From: a virus
Length of the DNA stretch: 51,307 bases
Direction: 5' to 3' (one strand)
Virus record (IMG/VR): IMGVR_UViG_3300027987_000471
Location: 1-51,307 of that record
Positions within the stretch are counted from its first letter, which is position 1. Every line of letters begins with the position of its first letter. The position numbers and the translations under genes were made by a program. Below, piece by piece: positions 18,898-42,054 of this stretch. The notes beneath the pieces were generated by a model that searched no databases, had not been told where the DNA came from, and worked only from the letters and a program-made list of their open reading frames with translations.

Positions 18898-19083
18898 CTA
18901 TCTTTCCCAAAACCTTTCGGCGGCGTCCTTCACGAGCTGCGTTCTTACCGGTATGCGGATCTGAAGGTAAGTCCGTTTCGGCGTCTCGACAAGCTTTCCT
19001 TCGCCGTTAACAAGAGCCTCCTGCAGAGTGCTCGATTGTATTTCTATCTCGTCACGATAGGTCTCCAATATTTTCTTTTTCAT
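18898..19083 (-). CDS. Hypothetical small protein
   Basis: A 61-residue charged protein at the end of the minus-strand operon. It overlaps the upstream transglycosylase gene by 4 bases and has a GAGAGG-type ribosome site. No recognised domain. Its C-terminal half (TYLQIRIPVRTQLVKDAAERFW) looks like a strand followed by a helix. Confidence 0.6.
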   Translation of the reverse strand: MKKKILETYRDEIEIQSSTLQEALVNGEGKLVETPKRTYLQIRIPVRTQLVKDAAERFWER

Positions 19084-19544
19084 TTTTTGATCCTCTCTAG
19101 CGTTCTTTTTGCTTTGTTTCTTCTGTATTTAAGCATCCTTTTCGCGCGCGGCGTTCCTCGGCAGTTCCCCGACATGTATTTATAGAATGCTCGAGTCATC
19201 GATCCTTTACAGTCACTACGTAGTTTTGAGAGAAGATATGCAGTGCAATATATTTGATTTTGCACATTGTTCAACGTATAGCCGGCAGCGCTGCATGCGC
19301 GCTTCGCTTTTCCGTGCACTTGCCCTAGTCCGTATTCTTTCAATTTAGACTTGGATTCAGCAGTATAGTCAAAGCTGCTTTCGAAATAGAAAACACTTGC
19401 TAAGTCAAATTTGTCTAGAGCGAAAGCGGTGCTTGCTTCGTTTATAATTGATACTACTTCGGCTCTATAATCTGCGTCTTTCATAATTTTAGACCTAGGC
19501 GACACAGCCATAAGCGTCATTATGAAAAGTTCTAATGTGCTCAT
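19080..19544 (-). CDS. Lytic transglycosylase-like (SLT) endolysin candidate
   Basis: A 154-residue protein with the SLT-type lysozyme core: a catalytic Glu55 in VFYFESSFDY, then YGLGQVHGKA at 71-80 (the GLxQV motif) and a helical C-terminal lobe (YCTAYLLSKL, RAFYKYMSGNC). It would cleave peptidoglycan. The first 15 residues are hydrophobic (LELFIMTLMAV), short for a signal anchor. It is the only clear muralytic enzyme seen, so it is the endolysin candidate although it lies in the replication operon. Confidence 0.72.
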   Translation of the reverse strand: MSTLELFIMTLMAVSPRSKIMKDADYRAEVVSIINEASTAFALDKFDLASVFYFESSFDYTAESKSKLKEYGLGQVHGKAKRACSAAGYTLNNVQNQIYCTAYLLSKLRSDCKGSMTRAFYKYMSGNCRGTPRAKRMLKYRRNKAKRTLERIKK

Positions 19545-29168: not shown

Positions 29169-29455
29169 CGAAGCAAGATGCTGTTTTTCATTTATCGCGA
29201 ATTCGACAGGCGCCGCTTGATCATGAGCTTGTTGCCAATATCGACACGGAAACTGTTTATGCCTACGCTGCAAATCCTTGTCGAATTTTGCTCGCACCGG
29301 AGATCTCAATCGGCACAGTCCAAGATTGGCTGGACGCGATGGACGATGCCGAGATAGGCGACACGGATTATGAGCTTTTCAAAACCATGCTAGAAGGCGC
29401 TAAAGACCTGATCGATGACCAAATCTATATGGATAGAATGGAGAGTTGGCTATGA
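29165..29455 (+). CDS. Hypothetical acidic protein
   Basis: A 96-residue acidic helical protein starting at the ATGA overlap at 29165. It has VQDWLDAMDDAEIGDTDYEL and DDQIYMDRMESW. No recognised family. High Asp/Glu content raises the possibility of DNA mimicry, which is speculation. Confidence 0.58.
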   Translation: MTKQDAVFHLSRIRQAPLDHELVANIDTETVYAYAANPCRILLAPEISIGTVQDWLDAMDDAEIGDTDYELFKTMLEGAKDLIDDQIYMDRMESWL

Positions 29456-29685
29456 AACCGATACTCGAATCAAAAAACGGATCGTGGAAGCAAAACAAGC
29501 ACCAAAAAGCCGCTGAGCGCTATTTTAAATCTATGTCTTGGGGCGCTATCAGCGATATGGCCGATCAACTTGTTTTGGGAGAATTCGACAAATTGGATTG
29601 GTTTGACGAAGAAAAAGATCCTATATTCATTCGACACCTAACCGATTTAGTCATGGAGGCCGATGAATTCGGACCGGAGTGGTAA
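29452..29685 (+). CDS. Hypothetical small protein
   Basis: A 77-residue protein, ATGA overlap with the previous gene. N-terminal basic stretch (NGSWKQNKHQKAAERYF) and an acidic, aromatic C terminus (FDKLDWFDEEKD). No recognised domain. Confidence 0.58.
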   Translation: MKPILESKNGSWKQNKHQKAAERYFKSMSWGAISDMADQLVLGEFDKLDWFDEEKDPIFIRHLTDLVMEADEFGPEW

Positions 29686-29686
29686 A

Positions 29687-29899
29687 ATGAGCATAGGTAC
29701 CTATTTCGAAATACGTTGTGACGCGCCTGTCGATATAGGCCTACGTGAGCACATCAGATGTCCAATGGTTCTACATGTTGAAACTTTAAATGCCGCTACT
29801 GCCGTGCTATATGCAGAACATTGTGGCTGGCGTTTTAAGAGCGGACATGACTACTGCCCAGAATGTGCGAGAAAGTTAGATCTAAAATGCCAAAACTAA
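29687..29899 (+). CDS. Small zinc-ribbon protein, paralogue 3
   Basis: A 70-residue protein starting at ATG 29687, one base after the previous stop. It has RCDAP and RCPM near the N terminus, a helix ending HCGWRF and then DYCPECARKLDLK, the same C-terminal signature as the genes at 28780 and 28956. It overlaps the next gene by 13 bases. Confidence 0.7.
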   Translation: MSIGTYFEIRCDAPVDIGLREHIRCPMVLHVETLNAATAVLYAEHCGWRFKSGHDYCPECARKLDLKCQN

Positions 29900-30165
29900 G
29901 ATTTTTCGGCGGAATTGAGGACAAAAAAGAACATTACGTTGATGCGTCAGCAGAGGCCTTTGCTAAACGTGACGGAGAAGACTATTACTGCTATAACAAA
30001 AGGCGTGTCTCTTTTTGGTACGGAAACAAGCGCTATTTATGTGAATACATGGTTAAGGCAGATCTAGATTCCGAAAAGCTTAAAGAAATCAACATGGCTT
30101 TAGCCTCTATAAACAACATCGATATAGTGAAGATAGTTTTTAGCGAAGGGTGCTACCCGCAGTAA
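29887..30165 (+). CDS. Hypothetical small protein
   Basis: A 92-residue beta/alpha protein starting at 29887 inside the preceding zinc-ribbon gene's end. Features: YYCYNKRRVSFWYGNKRYLC, then a helix and IDIVKIVFSEG. Function unknown. Confidence 0.6.
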   Translation: MPKLRFFGGIEDKKEHYVDASAEAFAKRDGEDYYCYNKRRVSFWYGNKRYLCEYMVKADLDSEKLKEINMALASINNIDIVKIVFSEGCYPQ

Positions 30166-30175
30166 GGAGTACAAA

Positions 30176-30409
30176 ATGAAAATTGAAATCGATACTGAGC
30201 AAGTTTGGAAAGTAATCGAGTCTATGTTGGATTTTCCTTTAGCACAAATTTGTAGGCACAATGTGATTTGTACTGTCGCCTCAACTCTTTTTGATGACAA
30301 TGGCATCTATAAGGACAACAAGGACTATGCCGATTTTTGTAAACATGTAGTTTGGGCACATGATTTCCAGGCAATTGAGTTTATGAAAAAAATAAGGAGG
30401 ATGAAATGA
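30176..30409 (+). CDS. Hypothetical small protein
   Basis: A 77-residue protein with an AAGGAG ribosome site. It is helical and has an ICRHNVIC segment that might bind metal. It overlaps the next gene by ATGA. No family recognised. Confidence 0.58.
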   Translation: MKIEIDTEQVWKVIESMLDFPLAQICRHNVICTVASTLFDDNGIYKDNKDYADFCKHVVWAHDFQAIEFMKKIRRMK

Positions 30410-30684
30410 AAAAAGATAAAACAAAATTTAATCATGTCTTCGAAAGCCATAATTTTAAGCTCCTAAATGAGCAGTGGGTTTTTAAATTTGAAAACGGATA
30501 CGGTGCCTCTGTCGTTAGAGGACCCTACACTTATGGTGGATCTGAAGGCCTCTACGAATTGGCAGTTCTTAGCAAAGATGGCTTTATAGACTATACAACA
30601 CCTATAACAGACGACGTAGAAGGCCATCTAAACGAAGCTGACGTAGAGCGGCTGCTAGACTCCATAAAAAAGCTGCCGGAATGA
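30406..30684 (+). CDS. Hypothetical small protein
   Basis: A 92-residue beta-rich protein (WVFKFENGYGASVVRGPYTY then YELAVLSKDGFIDYTTPI) with a helical end (EADVERLLDSIKKL). The aromatic strand pattern is common among small phage early proteins. It overlaps both neighbours by 4 bases. Confidence 0.6.
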   Translation: MKKDKTKFNHVFESHNFKLLNEQWVFKFENGYGASVVRGPYTYGGSEGLYELAVLSKDGFIDYTTPITDDVEGHLNEADVERLLDSIKKLPE

Positions 30685-31181
30685 AAAAGCTACTGATAGC
30701 CTGCTTTGTTTTTCTTTTGGCTTGCGAGGAAGACGGTAGGCTATATATTGACAATAACTGCAATGCCGACGAAGTAAGAGCTATCTACACCGGCGCGGAT
30801 AAAATAAACAGAGCCGCGGGCTACGAAAGAATAGAGATCGGAGGCATCAGAAAAATAAAAAATAGCGACATCCTAAACGATGGCCTAGATTCTATAACGT
30901 GTCTAGACGACAACCCCGGCGACGAAAGGCACACAGGCGAAGCTTTCGCCAGCGACATCCTTTTGTACAGAGACAATATCGCTAATTACAATGTTTTGCT
31001 GGCGGTTGTTATCCATGAGATGGTGCATTATATTGCACAAGGACGACGAATAAACCTAAGTTTTGTTGACGAAGAAGAGCATATAGACAACGAAAATTGT
31101 ATAATGTGGGAGTATGTTGACGAAAACCCACCGGACGATTTTTGTGAAGAAGACATCGAGTTTATAAGGAGTGTAACATGA
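30681..31181 (+). CDS. Predicted lipoprotein with zincin metalloprotease motif
   Basis: A 166-residue protein. It has a signal peptide with lipobox LLAC (Cys15, then Glu-Glu-Asp). A zinc-binding helix IHEMVHYI gives His112, Glu113 and His116. A further His134 and CIM at 140-142 (a possible Met-turn) follow, in the order seen in metzincin-type proteases. The mature domain has an acidic surface and several Cys. It would be anchored in the cell envelope of the infected host. Tightly coupled (ATGA) to neighbours in the early operon. It could act on an envelope protein, for example to block superinfection. That is inference. Confidence 0.7.
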   Translation: MKKLLIACFVFLLACEEDGRLYIDNNCNADEVRAIYTGADKINRAAGYERIEIGGIRKIKNSDILNDGLDSITCLDDNPGDERHTGEAFASDILLYRDNIANYNVLLAVVIHEMVHYIAQGRRINLSFVDEEEHIDNENCIMWEYVDENPPDDFCEEDIEFIRSVT

Positions 31182-31384
31182 ACAAAAGAGAAGAAGCGGC
31201 GGTTTTTGAGCTGTCTCGCTTGACTATAGCGCTGGATAAGCTGAAAAAGTCTAATAAAGTGCCCCCAGAAATTTTGGAGCATTTAGAGGCTAAAGTGCAA
31301 ACAATGCGAAACGCTATCGAACCGGCGCTTTTGGCGCTGTTTGATCAAGCGGCCGCTAAAGACTACGATGAAGAAGAGAATTAA
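31178..31384 (+). CDS. Hypothetical helical protein
   Basis: A 68-residue helical protein overlapping the lipoprotein gene by ATGA. It looks like a short coiled-coil (FELSRLTIALDKLKKSNKV, EHLEAKVQTMRNAIE) with an acidic end. No known family. Confidence 0.58.
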   Translation: MNKREEAAVFELSRLTIALDKLKKSNKVPPEILEHLEAKVQTMRNAIEPALLALFDQAAAKDYDEEEN

Positions 31385-32184: not shown

Positions 32185-34596
32185 ATGGATGTCTATCTTT
32201 TCGACAATATAAACTCGCCGCCCGCCGAAAAAGTAAGCGGAAATCCATCTGAAATACTTGATATTTTTGGGGACGAAGAGAAGTGCCCATCTGTTCTATG
32301 CAAAACAGAAGCGGACAAGCTCCGCGGTGCCGGTTTTGTTATAGCCAAGTACAAAGAGGGAAGTAGGACTAGAAAAATATCAGATTTAGCGCTGGATTCT
32401 TCTGTTCAAATACTGGTCTTGGATATAGATAATATCAACTTCGATCAGTTAGCAGAAGCTTGGCCGATTCTGTCGTCTTACGATTCTGTAGTCTATTCCA
32501 CATGGAAGCACACTCCAGACAATCCTAGAATTCGTTATATGGTGGCCTTGGATAAACCTGTACCTAACACCAACAAGAAACATTTTGAGGCAGTCTATCA
32601 AGCCGTGTCTCGGGCGCTAAAACTGCCCTACGATAAGCAAGCCAGCGATAGAGTGCGCTTCTTCCTCGGGCCTCAGCATCGAATAGAAGGAACACAAGAA
32701 CGGTATAGATTCAAAGGTCCACCTTTTCCGATATCGAAGATAGACGTAGCCGCAAGCGCCGCGGCTACTGAGAGAGACGAAACAGAGGCAGATGATGAAT
32801 TCCAAGTTACTGGAGACCGCCCAAAAAAGCAAGAACTAAAAAATCTGGCAAAAAAACTTCGGGATTCTCCTGTGCCGGCCTACAAAAAAATAGCAACTGC
32901 CGTCGAAGCTATATTGAGGGGCGAAAGCTACGCTCCGAAGGGTAGCCGGCACGCTACTACCCTAAAAGTAACTATGGAGTTGGTCAAAAAGTGGCCGCAA
33001 TTGGACGCTGAATGGTTTGCCGCGGAATACCTAGAGGCGGAATGTTGGCCCGAAATGTGGGCCGGCGAAGAAGCCGCTGCGATGCCTGATTGGTTGGGCT
33101 GCGTAAACGGCGCTCGAGAGAGAATAGCCGAATCTGAGGCCATGGCGGCTACTTTATCCAAGATGTTGGATCGATCCACTAAGGATGTCCCATTTTCCGC
33201 TTTAGGGGACAGAATAGGTAAGCTTATTCTAGCTCACGGCAACAGCTTCTATGTCTGGGATTTAGAGAAAAAAACATACACTGGGCCTTGGCCTGGAATA
33301 ACGCTACCAGTAGTTGTCCGAAATCAGCTAGGAAAAATAGAAGGTCTCAAGGAATTCAAAGAGACTAAAAGAGGTCGAACGATGAAGTCGCCTACCGAGC
33401 TGTGTCACGAATACGGAACCACGATCAAAGAAGTAATATTCTACCCAAATGATCCGCCTACAGTTCAAGACGAAGATACTCTATATCTGAAAGCTTATGA
33501 TTGGATTGCTTGGGAGCCTAAATTCCATCAGATAGCTGAGGAGCTTCTGATAGCCGTGGCGGGCCTTAGAGCCGAAGATCTTTTCGCCTATCTGTCTCAA
33601 TTTAGAAATCTGAATCAGCCGCTGCCGGCGCTAACTCTAGTCGGTGGGCCTGGTGTTTGGAAATCCCGAATCATGGAAATACTAGGCCGTTTCTGGACAG
33701 ACAAGGAGGTCAGTCACACAAATCGCGCCGAACATGCTCTTGCGAAACACAACACATGCCTCCTGAAAAACCCTACAATATGGTCTGATGAGCAACTAGT
33801 AAAGACTCCGATGGGTAAAGACCAACCAGAACTTTACAGGCATAGCATAACATCTCGAGTGCAGTTTATAGAACCGAAGGGGCTACCGATTGTCGCTTTG
33901 AAAACCGCGGCTCGGCATCTTGTTTCGGTAAACAGAGATAGTCACGTCTTCAGCTCTGAAGTCGATGCCGACTCTATTGTGGCGACAATGGAGCGCTTTT
34001 TATTGATTCACGTGAACGAGCCCGCAGTGGCAGCTTTTGAGGCGAAATGGGCAGGAACGGACGAACTTAATGTATTACGTGAGGGATCGTCTCTTTTAGA
34101 ATACATCAGATTTATTGAGGAAAACACCAACTTCAAGAGCGAAGGGCGTCTATTTGTTGCTCCTAGAGTAGATATGTCGGTATTGATGCGCAGCCGTTTC
34201 CGAAACGATATGTTGAATTATTTATGGCAGATCGCCCTAGACGCTATCGATTTCGAAACGCGCACATCGGTTCCTGGCCACATAGATAGGCTGCCTCTTG
34301 TAGTGGACCACTTAGGAAAGCTGCGCATATCTCCCGGGCGCTTACACAAGCTTTGGGCTACCTCTAAGGTTGTCGCCGGCTCGGGTCTGAAAAGGCCTAC
34401 CACGCAGCACATAGGACACCTGCTGACGCAAGCAGGATTCAAAAAGCACCGAAACGAACGCGCGACCAAGGCACCTACCGGTGGCTGGGAAGTAAATCTA
34501 AACACTTTCAAAGACTTTATGGAAGTTTCTGAAGTGATGAGCTGGGATGATTTTGTCTCTGCATGTTTAAAGGTATTCGGAAAGGAGCCAAAATGA
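32185..34596 (+). CDS. Primase-helicase (PrimPol-like plus SF3-type ATPase)
   Basis: An 803-residue replication protein. The N terminus (about 65-190) is a PrimPol-type primase region: VLDIDNINFDQL, YSTWKHTPDNPRIRYMVALD and DKQASDRVRFFLGP. The C-terminal ATPase has Walker A GGPGVWKSR at 487-495 and Walker B IWSDEQL with Asp535/Glu536, then a sensor region (ARHLVSVN). The Walker A has Trp492 where Gly is normal. It has a GGAGGT ribosome site and is the last large gene before the AATAGGCC repeat region, the candidate origin. Confidence 0.82.
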   Translation: MDVYLFDNINSPPAEKVSGNPSEILDIFGDEEKCPSVLCKTEADKLRGAGFVIAKYKEGSRTRKISDLALDSSVQILVLDIDNINFDQLAEAWPILSSYDSVVYSTWKHTPDNPRIRYMVALDKPVPNTNKKHFEAVYQAVSRALKLPYDKQASDRVRFFLGPQHRIEGTQERYRFKGPPFPISKIDVAASAAATERDETEADDEFQVTGDRPKKQELKNLAKKLRDSPVPAYKKIATAVEAILRGESYAPKGSRHATTLKVTMELVKKWPQLDAEWFAAEYLEAECWPEMWAGEEAAAMPDWLGCVNGARERIAESEAMAATLSKMLDRSTKDVPFSALGDRIGKLILAHGNSFYVWDLEKKTYTGPWPGITLPVVVRNQLGKIEGLKEFKETKRGRTMKSPTELCHEYGTTIKEVIFYPNDPPTVQDEDTLYLKAYDWIAWEPKFHQIAEELLIAVAGLRAEDLFAYLSQFRNLNQPLPALTLVGGPGVWKSRIMEILGRFWTDKEVSHTNRAEHALAKHNTCLLKNPTIWSDEQLVKTPMGKDQPELYRHSITSRVQFIEPKGLPIVALKTAARHLVSVNRDSHVFSSEVDADSIVATMERFLLIHVNEPAVAAFEAKWAGTDELNVLREGSSLLEYIRFIEENTNFKSEGRLFVAPRVDMSVLMRSRFRNDMLNYLWQIALDAIDFETRTSVPGHIDRLPLVVDHLGKLRISPGRLHKLWATSKVVAGSGLKRPTTQHIGHLLTQAGFKKHRNERATKAPTGGWEVNLNTFKDFMEVSEVMSWDDFVSACLKVFGKEPK

Positions 34597-36022: not shown

Positions 36023-36526
36023 ATGAAGGTCTTGTCAATCAGAAATCCTGAGGCCTATTTGGTCGCGTTCGGCCTGAAAGACGTCGAAAATCGGACATGG
36101 TCTACAGATTATCGAGGAACCGTCCAAATCCACTGTAGCGGTCAACAGTCGTTTGTGTGGCCAGATTCGGACTGGTTGCCGGACGAGGTAAAGAGGATCG
36201 TTCAGGCGGCGATAGATGACGGTACACCGTACGGAGAGCTGCATCGGTACGCTAGAGGCTACGAGGATATGTGTCGGCACGCAGAAGCGGTTCTAGGCGT
36301 CTCAGAAGAGCCAGGAGCTGGTTTTGTAGATGTGCTGAAAAGAGCGTCCATTTTGCCTTTTGTAAATAAAGCAGTCGTAGGACAGTTCGATCTGGTTGAT
36401 ATTGTTAGAGATTCTATGTCTCCGTGGGCACAGGAAGGCTGCTATCATTGGCTAGTAGAAAATCCAGTAGCTTATGATGAGCCTGAGATAGGAGTAAAAG
36501 GCAAACTGCGGTTGTGGAACCGTTAA
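36023..36526 (+). CDS. ASCH-domain protein
   Basis: A 167-residue protein. I chose ATG 36023 because the ASCH signature begins right there (MKVLSIRNPEAYLVAFGLKD, then ENRTWSTDYRGTVQIHCSG). A longer in-frame start at 35918 would run through the repeat region. ASCH domains bind RNA or modified bases and some are nucleases or deaminases on modified cytidine. The last 21 residues (NPVAYDEPEIGVKGKLRLWN plus R) are shared with the next gene. An extra AATAGGCC box lies inside the gene at 36052. Confidence 0.8.
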   Translation: MKVLSIRNPEAYLVAFGLKDVENRTWSTDYRGTVQIHCSGQQSFVWPDSDWLPDEVKRIVQAAIDDGTPYGELHRYARGYEDMCRHAEAVLGVSEEPGAGFVDVLKRASILPFVNKAVVGQFDLVDIVRDSMSPWAQEGCYHWLVENPVAYDEPEIGVKGKLRLWNR

Positions 36527-36544
36527 GGAGCAGACACGAAAATG
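36461..36544 (+). repeat. 84-bp direct repeat, copy 1
   Basis: Covers the last 21 codons of the ASCH gene, the stop, the AAGGAG ribosome site and the next start. It matches 37082-37165 at 79 of 84 positions. All four coding differences are third-base synonymous. The fifth turns an upstream ATG into ACG. Confidence 0.95.
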
Positions 36545-37147
36545 ACCGGATTGGTTAATAGAATGATAACAGCTCCGTATCCAATAAAGCACGCAGTTCG
36601 TTTTGTTGAGCAGACTCATCGCAGGCTTAAACATGCCCACCACCGTATGTGGGCAATCAGTCTATGGGTAGATGGGCAACTTCGGGGAGTGGCGTTGGTA
36701 GGCGCACCAAAAGCTAGGAAATTGGGTGTAGAACAGAAGGACAGACCATATCCGCCCGCTTATGACCGGCTGGAAGTAGTGAGAGTTGCTGTAGAGGAAG
36801 GAGTTCCTAATGGGTGTTCGATGCTGTACGGGGCATGTGCCCGCGCATCTCGCGCCATGGGCGTGTTAGACTTGCTCACTTACACAGATGAGGATGAGCC
36901 AGGAACAAGTCTTCGAGCTGCTGGTTGGATAGAAGATGATGGGCTTTTTGGAGGAGGTCAGGCCGCGCGACCGGCACGTCCACGCAGGATACGTACAGAG
37001 CAAGAAGCACAAATGCGTAAGAGATGGTGGGCTCCGTGGTCTCAGTCTGTCAAACAAAAAGATTTAACTTCCAAAGGAGGCAATCCAGTAGCTTATGATG
37101 AGCCTGAGATAGGCGTGAAAGGTAAACTGCGGTTATGGAACCGTTAA
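36542..37147 (+). CDS. GNAT-like XF1762-family protein with ASCH-type tail
   Basis: A 201-residue protein. Residues 15-135 match the XF1762 group of small GNAT-related phage proteins: HHRMWAISLWVDGQLRGVAL, YDRLEVVRVAVEEGVPNGCS, MLYGACARASRAMGVLDLLT and EPGTSLRAAGW. A basic linker follows (PARPRRIRTEQEAQMRKRWW). The final 21 residues are the same as those of the ASCH protein. The in-frame ATG that would be six bases earlier by analogy with copy 2 of the repeat is ACG here. Confidence 0.75.
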   Translation: MTGLVNRMITAPYPIKHAVRFVEQTHRRLKHAHHRMWAISLWVDGQLRGVALVGAPKARKLGVEQKDRPYPPAYDRLEVVRVAVEEGVPNGCSMLYGACARASRAMGVLDLLTYTDEDEPGTSLRAAGWIEDDGLFGGGQAARPARPRRIRTEQEAQMRKRWWAPWSQSVKQKDLTSKGGNPVAYDEPEIGVKGKLRLWNR

Positions 37148-37165
37148 GGAGCAGACATGAAAATG
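37082..37165 (+). repeat. 84-bp direct repeat, copy 2
   Basis: Covers the 3' end of the GNAT-like gene, the ribosome site and the start of the lipoprotein gene. See copy 1 at 36461-36544. The two copies flank the GNAT-like gene exactly, as expected if the gene was inserted or duplicated by recombination. Confidence 0.95.
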
Positions 37166-37486
37166 GTTAGTGTACTTGTTTTGTTGATTTCGATTTTGGG
37201 TTGTGGCGGCGAGCCGTTGCAGTTGCCTAAAGTATCAATTCATACGTGCGATGAGGTAAAAGTGCATCTGCAGGAGATTGGCTGTATGGATTTTGAGCTG
37301 TGTGCTTCGTTGGTTGATGATGCAGTCGAGAAGTACATAACCTCTAGGCTGCCCGAGAATGTTCCGTTTGAGGCGTTTTGTGATATTGCGCTATCGTCCG
37401 GGTTGCTGCCGGTTGACTGTGTTATGCAGGCGGCGAAACCGGAAGAGGTTGTGGATTGTGGCAAATTGATGGCGCCCAAAAAATAA
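37157..37486 (+). CDS. Small predicted lipoprotein
   Basis: A 109-residue protein with signal peptide and lipobox ILGC (Cys16 then Gly-Gly-Glu). The mature part has six or more Cys (TCDEVK, IGCMDFELCAS, FCDIAL, DCVMQA, DCGKL), probably disulfide-bonded in the periplasm. AAGGAG is 5 bases before ATG 37157. A second ATG at 37163 also fits. Function unknown. Phage lipoproteins of this size often act in superinfection exclusion. Confidence 0.7.
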   Translation: MKMVSVLVLLISILGCGGEPLQLPKVSIHTCDEVKVHLQEIGCMDFELCASLVDDAVEKYITSRLPENVPFEAFCDIALSSGLLPVDCVMQAAKPEEVVDCGKLMAPKK

Positions 37487-37711: not shown

Positions 37712-38371
37712 ATGCAGATTCTCCCACCCAAACAAGCCGCAGTGCTTAAAGAAGAGCCTGCGGCTGTCCTTTTTTCCGCTGGAAAAGATAGTATCGCGGC
37801 AGCCGATATTCTTCATAGAGAGAATCTGCTGCCAAAAGATTTTATATTTTTATATTTTGTTCCGGGTTTGTCTTTTGTGGAGTCTATTCTAAGACATTAC
37901 GAGAAAAAATGGAAAGTAAATATAATACGCAGGCCTTCGGATGAAGCTCTGAGTTTATTTTCTGCTATGCGCAACGTTCGTAAAAAGCAATATACAGAGT
38001 CGGATGCTATGGCGCTTATTAGAGCTGAGTTTGATAATGTTTGGCTAATATCGGGAGCAAAAAAGAAAGACAGCTTAGCTCGGCGCGGCATGCTGTCAAA
38101 GCTGGTTGATGGAGTAGATTCTAAGCGTAAGACTATTTACCCGATAATTGAGTGGTCGGATAGACAAGTTAATGCTTATTGCAAAAAGAACAGACTTAAG
38201 CTTCCTATAACATACGATATGGGCCTTAAAAATTCTATGTGGGTCCCGAATACCGAAGGCTTGGTTTGGATAAAATCAAATTTTCCGAAAGATTATGATA
38301 GAATAGTTAGATTTTTTCCTAATCTGGAAAGTCTAGTTTTCAAGTATAAGAGACAGTATGCCCGCGAATAA
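37712..38371 (+). CDS. PAPS-reductase-like PP-loop ATPase
   Basis: A 219-residue N-type ATP pyrophosphatase. The PP-loop is VLFSAGKDSIAA at 19-30. Helix and strand order follow phosphoadenosine phosphosulfate reductases and DndC-type proteins, with NVWLISGAKKKDSLARRG and PIIEWSDRQVNAYCKKNRL. It lacks the cysteine cluster of true DndC. It overlaps the ParB-like gene by 14 bases. Such pairs are common in phages and are suspected to act in nucleic acid modification or its recognition. The substrate is unknown. Confidence 0.78.
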   Translation: MQILPPKQAAVLKEEPAAVLFSAGKDSIAAADILHRENLLPKDFIFLYFVPGLSFVESILRHYEKKWKVNIIRRPSDEALSLFSAMRNVRKKQYTESDAMALIRAEFDNVWLISGAKKKDSLARRGMLSKLVDGVDSKRKTIYPIIEWSDRQVNAYCKKNRLKLPITYDMGLKNSMWVPNTEGLVWIKSNFPKDYDRIVRFFPNLESLVFKYKRQYARE

Positions 38372-39134
38372 ATACGAATCGTTCGAGCTTATTGTTATTT
38401 CTAGGCGCAAAATAAATTTAGCCGAATATAACCCTAGGCTGATTTCTGAAGATGCTAAGAAGAGACTAAGGCACTTCATCAAATCGAAACAGTTTGGTCT
38501 TCTGTCGCCTCTTGTGTGGAACGAGGTTACAGGAAACCTTGTTGCCGGGCATCAACGGATACAGATTTTGGATTCTTTGCATGGGCATCTTGATTATGAG
38601 CTTACTGTATCTAAAGTTCATCTTTCGGAAGAGGACGAAATCAAAGCGAATGTTTTTCTGAATAATTCATCGGCGCAAGGGCAGTGGGATTATGATGTTT
38701 TGACTCAGCTCGCAGATTTAGGCGATTTTGATTTTGAAAAAGACTTTGGTTTTTCTTCAGATGATGTTGAGGCTATATTTGGGCCTCCTGAAGAGGAATT
38801 AGAGGCGCTTGCGGCGGAAGGGATGCGGCAGCTGGAGGAGGCGATACCGTTGCCGGCTATGGCTGATAGCGCTGAATCTGAAGAGAATCTGAGTGCTTTA
38901 TCGGAAGAAGATGCTGAGAAGTTCAGGCAGCTTAAAAAAGAAGCTCGGGAGAAAGCGAAACTTGACAATTTAAATGGAGATGGGTATAGATTGAGTAAGG
39001 CCGATGTGACAGTGACAATAGTATTTAAAGATTCGGAAACGAAAAGAGGTTTTATGCGTCTGTTGTCGCGTCCCGAAAATGATCGAAACATAACTGCCGA
39101 GCATCTAATTGAGTGCATTGAGAATGGATTTTAA
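38358..39134 (+). CDS. ParB-like nuclease-domain protein
   Basis: A 258-residue protein. Residues 14-110 are the ParB/Srx fold: INLAEYNPRLISEDAKKRLR, PLVWNEVTGNLVAGHQRIQI (GHQR at 64-67) and a KANVFLNNSSAQGQWDYDVL segment. This group has ATPase or nuclease activity rather than chromosome partitioning. The C-terminal half is acidic and helical with a second basic/acidic domain. Overlap with the PP-loop gene argues that the two proteins work together. Confidence 0.78.
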   Translation: MPANKYESFELIVISRRKINLAEYNPRLISEDAKKRLRHFIKSKQFGLLSPLVWNEVTGNLVAGHQRIQILDSLHGHLDYELTVSKVHLSEEDEIKANVFLNNSSAQGQWDYDVLTQLADLGDFDFEKDFGFSSDDVEAIFGPPEEELEALAAEGMRQLEEAIPLPAMADSAESEENLSALSEEDAEKFRQLKKEAREKAKLDNLNGDGYRLSKADVTVTIVFKDSETKRGFMRLLSRPENDRNITAEHLIECIENGF

Positions 39135-40323: not shown

Positions 40324-40362
40324 AAAAATTATCGGTTATTCCGATTTAACTATGAGGTGTAC

Positions 40363-42054
40363 ATGCGTAAATTTTTGGCATTGATTCTCTTTTTGGTCGG
40401 GTGCGATACAGATTCTTGTTTAGTGCCTAGAGATGCTGGGGATGTAGTTTGTATTCAAGTGTGTGCTGATTTGTCGAGCAGGAGGTGTATAGAAATATGC
40501 TATCCTGACGGCACCGATACCGATACGGACACAACTACTGTTTCCGAGGATGCTGGTGCAGCTAACAGCACGGAATTACAGCAAGAAACCGATACGGACA
40601 CGGACGCTAGTACGGAATTAGAGCAAGAAACCGAGCCGGACACCGATACGGATACGTCCGTTGTTTTAGACGATGCCGGTGTCGATGCATCGGTAGTGCC
40701 GCTGCAGAGCTATTTTGTTGATTCGGTTCTAGGTGATGATTCTAACCCTGGAACTTTTGAGCTTCCTTGGAGGTCTACCACACCTTTTTCGTCAGCAGAG
40801 CAAGCGCCGGATATTAGTCTGCAGCCGGGAGATACTGTATATCTTAGAGCCGGTATGTATACGACTGTCGCTCAAGGGACGGATAATATGTATGTTCCTG
40901 CGTGGCTAAATCTTCATTATGTTCACGGTGAAAGTTCGGCTCCTATCACGATTAGAAACTACCCGGGAGAACATGTAATTATCGATCCTGCTGGTCAAGG
41001 CATGGGAGTATTTTTTCTAAATTCGTCGTTTGTTAATGTTGTGGGTTTGGATATTAGAGAAGCTTACTACAGAGGGATTTCTGTAGATCTGAATTCTAAT
41101 GAGGTCAATATTGATCATTGTTCCATATCTAGTACGGATGGGTGGGTTGGAGACAACATAGCCGGTGTCGAATTCAGATTAGCTAAAGACTGTTCATTAA
41201 CAAACTCTATAATTTTTGATAATTATGATAGAGTATCGGCGGCGCAAAATAACCAAACTGAAAATAGCTGTAATGTGTTTCTTCACAGAGGCGAAGGGAC
41301 AATAACTGTAGCTGATAATGTTATTTACCAGACAGGAGAGCCCGGATCTGAATATTCCGGATGCGGGCTGAAGCATAAGCATTCTTCGGTGGACCATGAT
41401 TTTGAGCTTAGAGTAGAGCGTAATTATTTTGAGAATCATCGTTTTGCGGCTATTGGGATTTCTACTAACAATGCTGTAGTGCAGGATAATGTTGTTAACG
41501 GAGTGTATAACTATTCCGGTTGGGGGCCTGGTCACGCTATCGATTTTAGGGATTGGGGTGGTCTTACCCATCTAACCGGCGCTAGAGTCGATCACAATAC
41601 AGTAATTTCAGATAAGCCTTTTTTCTTTTATCCTACAGATATTAATTCTGAAGGTGAAGGTGCGCCATGGGAGGATTTGAGCGATAATGTTGTCTCGGAT
41701 AATGTTTTTGTGGCTACTGATTCGAATGTGCAAGATCCGCCCATAGAAATCTACACTGCTATCGATGATAGAATCTATGAGTTGGCCGCGGCAGGAACTA
41801 GTTTTGAAGGAAATTGTTATTTTCTACAGACTGGCGGCGATATGCAGTTTGGCTTTGCCGAAGATACTTCGTTTGGCGAGTTGGGAGGCCGGTATGATTT
41901 TTTAGGATGGCAGCTGGAGTACGGTTGGGATTTTGACGGTTCTGAAGGAGATCCGCAGCTAAATTCGTCTTTTATGCCGACCTCGGAAAGTTGTAGCGGA
42001 AAAGGAGTCAGATCGGTTATAAATAGATCTAAGGTGTTTGTGCCACCAATGTAA
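40363..42054 (+). CDS. Lipoprotein with DTDT-rich linker and parallel beta-helix
   Basis: A 563-residue protein. ATG 40363 has GAGGTG 3 bases upstream. Signal peptide with lipobox LVGC (Cys14, then Asp, a retention signal in enteric bacteria). Residues about 50-105 are an Asp/Thr/Glu linker (TDTDTD repeats, DDAGVDASV). Then a right-handed beta-helix with YFVDSVLGDDSNPGTFELPW, GDTVYLRAGMYT and rungs such as VNVVGLDIREAYYRGISV and NVVSDNVFVATD. Composition resembles secreted myxobacterial-type proteins and may have been acquired from a host. Surface or envelope function is likely. Confidence 0.75.
   Translation: MRKFLALILFLVGCDTDSCLVPRDAGDVVCIQVCADLSSRRCIEICYPDGTDTDTDTTTVSEDAGAANSTELQQETDTDTDASTELEQETEPDTDTDTSVVLDDAGVDASVVPLQSYFVDSVLGDDSNPGTFELPWRSTTPFSSAEQAPDISLQPGDTVYLRAGMYTTVAQGTDNMYVPAWLNLHYVHGESSAPITIRNYPGEHVIIDPAGQGMGVFFLNSSFVNVVGLDIREAYYRGISVDLNSNEVNIDHCSISSTDGWVGDNIAGVEFRLAKDCSLTNSIIFDNYDRVSAAQNNQTENSCNVFLHRGEGTITVADNVIYQTGEPGSEYSGCGLKHKHSSVDHDFELRVERNYFENHRFAAIGISTNNAVVQDNVVNGVYNYSGWGPGHAIDFRDWGGLTHLTGARVDHNTVISDKPFFFYPTDINSEGEGAPWEDLSDNVVSDNVFVATDSNVQDPPIEIYTAIDDRIYELAAAGTSFEGNCYFLQTGGDMQFGFAEDTSFGELGGRYDFLGWQLEYGWDFDGSEGDPQLNSSFMPTSESCSGKGVRSVINRSKVFVPPM
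40510..40670 (+). repeat. Asp-Thr coding repeat
   Basis: Two imperfect units, GGAATTACAGCAAGAAACCG and GGAATTAGAGCAAGAAACCG, each followed by GAY-ACN repeats, encode TELxQET then D/T runs. This is the low-complexity linker of the lipoprotein. Such repeats can change length by slippage. Confidence 0.75.

Follow-up and report, generated by a model that had tools for sequence, protein, structure and literature searches.

The gene at 30681-31181 of a contractile-tailed phage encodes a predicted lipoprotein that is best read as a metzincin-like zincin, one that would work like a metzincin; this reading is supported but unproven. The window is the whole of virus record IMGVR_UViG_3300027987_000471 (51,307 bp), and the lipoprotein family is known so far from two phages only. 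Our leading, still tentative, interpretation is that the phage produces a zinc metallopeptidase of zincin fold early in infection, which would be exported and lipid-anchored and would cleave a protein of the envelope.

A phage lipoprotein gene and its single orthologue

The features on which the argument draws are as follows.

30681..31181, plus strand: zincin-like lipoprotein ORF, 166 aa, ATG start, backed by overlaps, an orthologue and selection
30681..30725, plus strand: predicted type II signal peptide with lipobox L12-L-A-C15 (LSAC in the orthologue)
30759..30761, plus strand: Cys27, invariant in both phages
30900..30902, plus strand: Cys74, invariant in both phages
31014..31028, plus strand: HEMVH (residues 112-116), predicted zinc ligands His112 and His116 and base Glu113
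31080..31082, plus strand: His134, candidate third zinc ligand, which bridging families align to the archaemetzincin third zinc His
31098..31106, plus strand: Cys140-Ile-Met142, candidate Met-turn by motif and archaemetzincin spacing
31143..31145, plus strand: Cys155 in DFC, aligning with the first Cys of an archaemetzincin-like C-terminal CxxC
30406..30684, plus strand: upstream ORF, 92 aa, whose stop (30684) overlaps the lipoprotein gene start
31178..31384, plus strand: downstream ORF, 68 aa, whose start (31178) overlaps the lipoprotein gene stop
32185..34596, plus strand: primase/helicase-like ORF (predicted role), 803 aa, downstream in the same direction

An earlier note, made from the DNA letters alone, had described this ORF as a lipoprotein with an LLAC lipobox, the string IHEMVHYI, a histidine at position 134 and the triplet CIM. 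The ORF is as described and is a real gene, overlapping both neighbours and having a 61%-identical orthologue at the same place (L004:1492-1992) in the uncultured phage IMGVR_UViG_3300031274_000003. We call the latter the sister phage; the two terminases share 89% identity, compared with about 47% at best for every other phage found. Between the two lipoprotein genes, dN is 0.29 and synonymous change is saturated, indicating purifying selection. The remaining elements also hold: the signal peptide spans residues 1-15 and ends at C15, and HEMVH (112-116), His134 and C140-I-M142 are all invariant in the orthologue, which keeps the lipobox, eight consecutive residues (HEMVHYIA) and cysteines 27, 74, 140 and 155. 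The only His besides those of HEMVH and His134 is His84. Direct homologue searches of viral contigs, phage and plasmid records and genome contigs returned only the sister orthologue, as did searches of 43 TerL-related virus records and about 1,190 bacterial genomes from four phyla; weak matches in bacterial genomes were noise.

Both proteins have the attributes of bacterial lipoproteins, namely a type II signal peptide, a lipobox and Lys or Arg among the first residues, and a lipid-anchored, exported protein is the supported prediction. In Gram-negative bacteria, the residue after the lipobox Cys governs retention in the inner membrane. That residue is Glu in the studied phage and Cys in the orthologue, which, if the Gram-negative rule holds, gives no argument for inner-membrane retention. 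The even number of conserved cysteines would fit an exported protein with disulfides, a Cys155-Cys140 bond being probable. Judged by eye and from a poor first model (pLDDT 40), the order of elements runs from a strand through a helix (29-46), a second strand, the Cys74 loop, HTGEA and the strand DILLY to the HExxH helix, a loop, His134, CIM and a C-terminal helix following DFC, which would be the order of a minimal metzincin.

Three ORFs of the studied phage have a lipobox. Apart from the zincin-like one, these are a small Cys-rich lipoprotein without a family match (37157-37486), 52% identical in the sister phage (L002:5301-5618), and a 565-aa lipoprotein directly upstream of the terminase genes (40357-42054), with a TD-rich linker (TDTDTD...) and a right-handed beta-helix. 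The TD-rich linkers of the latter resemble those of Myxococcota lipoproteins, no more than a hint as to the host.

Comparison with known zincin families

The lipoprotein matches no family in Pfam, NCBIfam, PHROG or PDB sequences. Neither PF07998 nor PF00413 was matched, and the Pfam matches listed at E up to 10 include no SprT (PF10263) or WLM; a weak match to Pfam M76 covers residues 84-120 (E 0.12). The published metzincin zinc consensus, HExxHxxGxx(H/D) (PMC3427221), is broken by Ala119 in place of Gly and by a third His that lies 18 residues past His116 rather than 6, that is, 12 residues late. From the archaemetzincin pattern HC-x4-C-x-M-x17-CxxC only C140 and C155 of the four cysteines are present. 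For these reasons we assign the protein to neither the metzincins nor the archaemetzincins. Met142 is nevertheless invariant and as far from His134 as its archaemetzincin counterpart, and a Met-turn role is predicted for it.

Family profiles were compared with 1000 shuffles in which HExxH was fixed and the rest permuted, for both the studied protein and the orthologue. The clearest excess was found with the matrixin (M10) profile, which was equalled in 9/1000 shuffles of the studied protein and 0/1000 of the orthologue (p 0.009 and <0.001). The corresponding counts were 129 and 9 for M54, 44 and 8 for M78, 48 and 17 for SprT, and 220 and 72 for M43, so that the SprT and M78 controls likewise score slightly above shuffles. 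Probabilities from hhalign with a two-sequence phage profile were low in all cases (19% for M10 and 23% for the non-metzincin M78, with M43 and M54 also low), and the alignments cover at most the surroundings of the HExxH helix.

Structure prediction gave a first AlphaFold model too poor for use (mean pLDDT 40.5). On an alignment bridged with cellular sequences the mean rose to 67.7, with about 80 over the catalytic half and a still poor N-terminal half; there is some circularity in this model, the added sequences having been selected for the motif. A Foldseek search of it against PDB returned no match at E<1, the better-scoring insignificant matches being mostly MMP, ADAM and fragilysin catalytic domains (TM about 0.23-0.39), and a fold search of the viral library BFVD gave nothing significant. 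The HMM and fold comparison with metzincins proposed in the earlier note thus turned out divided, with M10 beating shuffles on one side, and on the other no Pfam match and no Foldseek match at E<1. Its broader suggestion of a metalloprotease-like protein draws support from the motif geometry, the bridging families described below and the matrixin test, and none from family models, the metzincin consensus or significant fold matches.

Among named families, archaemetzincins (MEROPS M54, PF07998; AfAmzA, MkAmzA) share with the phage protein the HExxH helix, the H-x5-C-x-M spacing from third His to Met-turn, an F/Y-C near the C-terminal helix and a compact size. The phage protein differs from them by 12 extra residues ahead of the third His, lack of the Gly, Ile135 in place of the Cys after that His, absence of the second CxxC Cys and predicted export with a lipid anchor. 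Matrixins and other short metzincins (M10) provide the best named profile against shuffles, together with the weak, non-significant structural matches to MMP catalytic domains, but have the HExxHxxGxxH that the phage protein lacks. In several metzincins other than archaemetzincins, four similarly placed cysteines form disulfides instead of a zinc finger (PMC3427221), which fits an exported phage protein.

Membership in another zincin group (Glu-zincin, SprT-like or M76-like), in which HEMVH would be joined by a third ligand 12-20 residues on and no true Met-turn would exist, is unlikely. It would account for HEMVH without Gly, for the weak M76 match and for the slight excess of the SprT and M78 profiles; moreover, SprT-like proteins, which also occur in phages, have the third His 11-18 residues past HExxH, as the phage protein does, the range being that of the SprT proteins we fetched. 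Those proteins, however, have His-Gly/Asp/Ser-x-x-Trp following the third His, and the HExxH...HGxxW arrangement is absent here. SprT proteins are cytosolic and have neither export signal nor Met-turn, whereas an export signal is present in the phage protein, together with four further invariant cysteines and an invariant C-I-M at archaemetzincin spacing. The lack of SprT or WLM among the listed Pfam matches also counts against such an assignment, and the matrixin profile equals or beats those of SprT and M78.

Cellular proteins with the same spacing

HExxH is expected 0.30 times in a shuffled proteome of the studied phage and was observed once among 78 ORFs, so the motif alone means little; that sole occurrence falls in one of the three lipobox ORFs. 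HExxH followed by His and Met at loose spacing arose in 55/200,000 shuffles of the lipoprotein. In 84,980 genomes, the exactly spaced pattern HE[hydrophobic]xH-x17-H-x5-C-[hydrophobic]-M had 29 matches, against about 15 expected by chance by our own arithmetic with equal base frequencies. Open frames of at least 125 aa contain 22 of the 29, from Planctomycetota, Acidobacteria, Bacteroidota, Lentisphaeria, archaea and others. These are probably mostly real zincins, because Gly, which the pattern did not demand, stands at the fourth HExxH position in 17 of the 22, with Ala or Ser in the rest. Against Pfam, the pattern-matched cellular proteins score below cut-off, mostly with the metzincin families M54, M43, M12B and M10, and at least one (L018) is a predicted lipoprotein by its N-terminus. 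Further viral matches were interrupted by stops or fell in ORFs of 42 aa, apart from one in a longer frame that is unconvincing. The bacterial and archaeal proteins with HExxH-x17-H-x5-C-x-M (L014-L042) are without annotation and look like archaemetzincin relatives with an insert ahead of the third zinc ligand.

A bridging profile was built from 16 pattern-matched cellular domains, without phage sequences. When searched against PDB, it places the archaemetzincins 2x7m and 3lmc on top (E about 5e-4), followed almost only by metzincins (reprolysins, ADAM8, myroilysin, serralysins). In the alignment the HExxHxxGL turn and the third zinc His are separated by a 12-residue gap, after which His, Cys-x-Met and FCxxC align. 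Adding both phage proteins raises most top scores slightly (2x7m from 22.8 to 23.3, 4dd8 from 19.1 to 21.1) and lowers one (4q1l from 21.0 to 19.7). If the phage protein is homologous to the bridging set, His134 would be the equivalent of the third zinc ligand. That homology is the weak link of the argument: the bridging proteins were chosen by motif, so agreement at motif positions is built in. Beyond the motif the similarity is modest: the two phage proteins are equalled against the cellular profile by 34/1000 and 28/1000 motif-preserving shuffles (p ~0.03 each, the two values not being independent), and taken by itself the resemblance around DFC, past the Met-turn, does not reach significance in a shuffle test.

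Genomic context

The studied phage has a recognisable tail sheath, tape measure, baseplate, terminase, portal, head protease and major head protein. Its lipoprotein gene lies between divergent DNA-replication genes and the 803-aa primase/helicase-like ORF. The lipoprotein gene and the gene starting at 31178 stay paired in the sister phage, where the small genes filling 29446-30684, upstream of the lipoprotein, are missing or replaced. From this position we infer an early operon; the studied phage has 17 promoter-like sites where chance predicts 17.0.

Elsewhere in the window, a Mom-like gene (36542-37147; PF25680, E 7e-5, under the cut-off) is flanked by two 91-bp direct repeats that are 91% identical (36454-36544 and 37075-37165). 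It is not in the sister phage, and the region 36454-37165 is probably a recent insertion with duplicated ends. A PAPS-reductase-like gene followed by a ParB-like gene (38358-39134) occupies 37712-39134, and both phages have the pair. By eye, the sister phage has an amidase-like gene (L002:7619-8206) with no counterpart in the studied phage, in which a lysozyme-like match occurs at 19083-19544 on the minus strand; the two phages may therefore have different lysins.

Proposed mechanism

In the proposed mechanism, zinc would be held by His112, His116 and probably His134, the last standing 12 residues further on than in canonical metzincins, while Glu113 would be the water-activating base and Met142 the Met-turn residue beneath the site. 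Disulfides C140-C155 and probably C27-C74 may replace the archaemetzincin zinc finger. Presumably made early in infection, the envelope-anchored enzyme would cleave an envelope protein, most likely the host's, and so might alter adsorption or injection by later phages, or the wall itself. Action on the envelope of the infected cell is most plausible, because the protein is predicted to be exported and lipid-anchored and its gene is placed with early genes. No result links a target to the phage zincin.

Superinfection exclusion by proteolysis is plausible. Known exclusion lipoproteins (Ltp, Cor, mEpimmI Lpp) are likewise small, phage-encoded and located in the host envelope, and the excerpts describing Ltp of TP-J34 (PMC3952083) and the mEpimmI phages (PMC11893012) present them as blockers of ejection or receptors; unlike for the phage zincin, no protease motif is reported in those excerpts. 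The full chain, in which a metzincin-type protease with its zinc site stretched is produced early, is anchored in the membrane and cuts an envelope protein, thereby shutting out later phages, is rather improbable when taken as a whole. A catalytically dead or non-enzymatic lipoprotein that acts by binding, as those blockers do, is improbable: zincin folds do lose activity in nature, as in CarG (PMC3427221), but here neither Glu113 nor any candidate ligand differs between two proteins that are 61% identical overall.

Exclusion is not the only reading of an active enzyme, because a phage-derived metzincin/lipoprotein pair has already been described. In that pair, Listeria Mtz is a phage-derived enzyme with a Met-turn and an extended zinc motif; its substrate is the lipoprotein Tim, and it renders cells more sensitive to phage lysins and lysis (PMC8235301). 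The earlier note's remark that no example was described needs qualifying by this nearest precedent, which acts on wall and lysis instead; our searches of an open-access library returned no publication linking a phage-encoded metalloprotease with lipoprotein exclusion. The predicted likeness consists of a phage-derived zinc protease at the cell surface with a lipoprotein involved, whereas Mtz itself has a type I signal, is secreted and carries the canonical extended motif, its partner Tim being the lipoprotein; here the zincin is the lipoprotein. That the phage enzyme similarly loosens the envelope and aids lysis, instead of excluding phages, is rather improbable. In its favour, the studied phage encodes two other lipoproteins, but the gene sits among early replication genes, the sole lysozyme-like match is near 19 kb and an adjacent TIMP-like partner is absent. 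Insignificant phmmer matches to TIMP-1 (E 0.07) disappeared with the two-sequence profile and are put down to chance. A spanin role was rejected on place and size.

Least probable is an orphan lipoprotein of a different fold carrying HEMVH as a chance string, for which the expected frequency of HExxH and the absent family and fold matches speak, and against which stand the retention of HEMVHYIA, His134, Cys140 and Met142 in both phages and the occurrence of the loose geometry in just 55 of the 200,000 shuffles.

Implications

Read as a metzincin-like zincin, the protein is a variant of a known enzyme kind in an unusual setting, found in two phages. Should it have activity, it would count as a rare case of a phage protease placed outside the cytoplasm as a lipoprotein, and it offers a testable route by which phages may edit the host envelope through proteolysis. 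If exclusion by proteolysis is true, superinfection exclusion would be carried out by a protease from a two-phage family. The zinc-site spacing of the phage protein is missed by family models; because unannotated proteins from several phyla of bacteria and archaea have it too, the pattern could reveal unrecognised metzincin-like enzymes.
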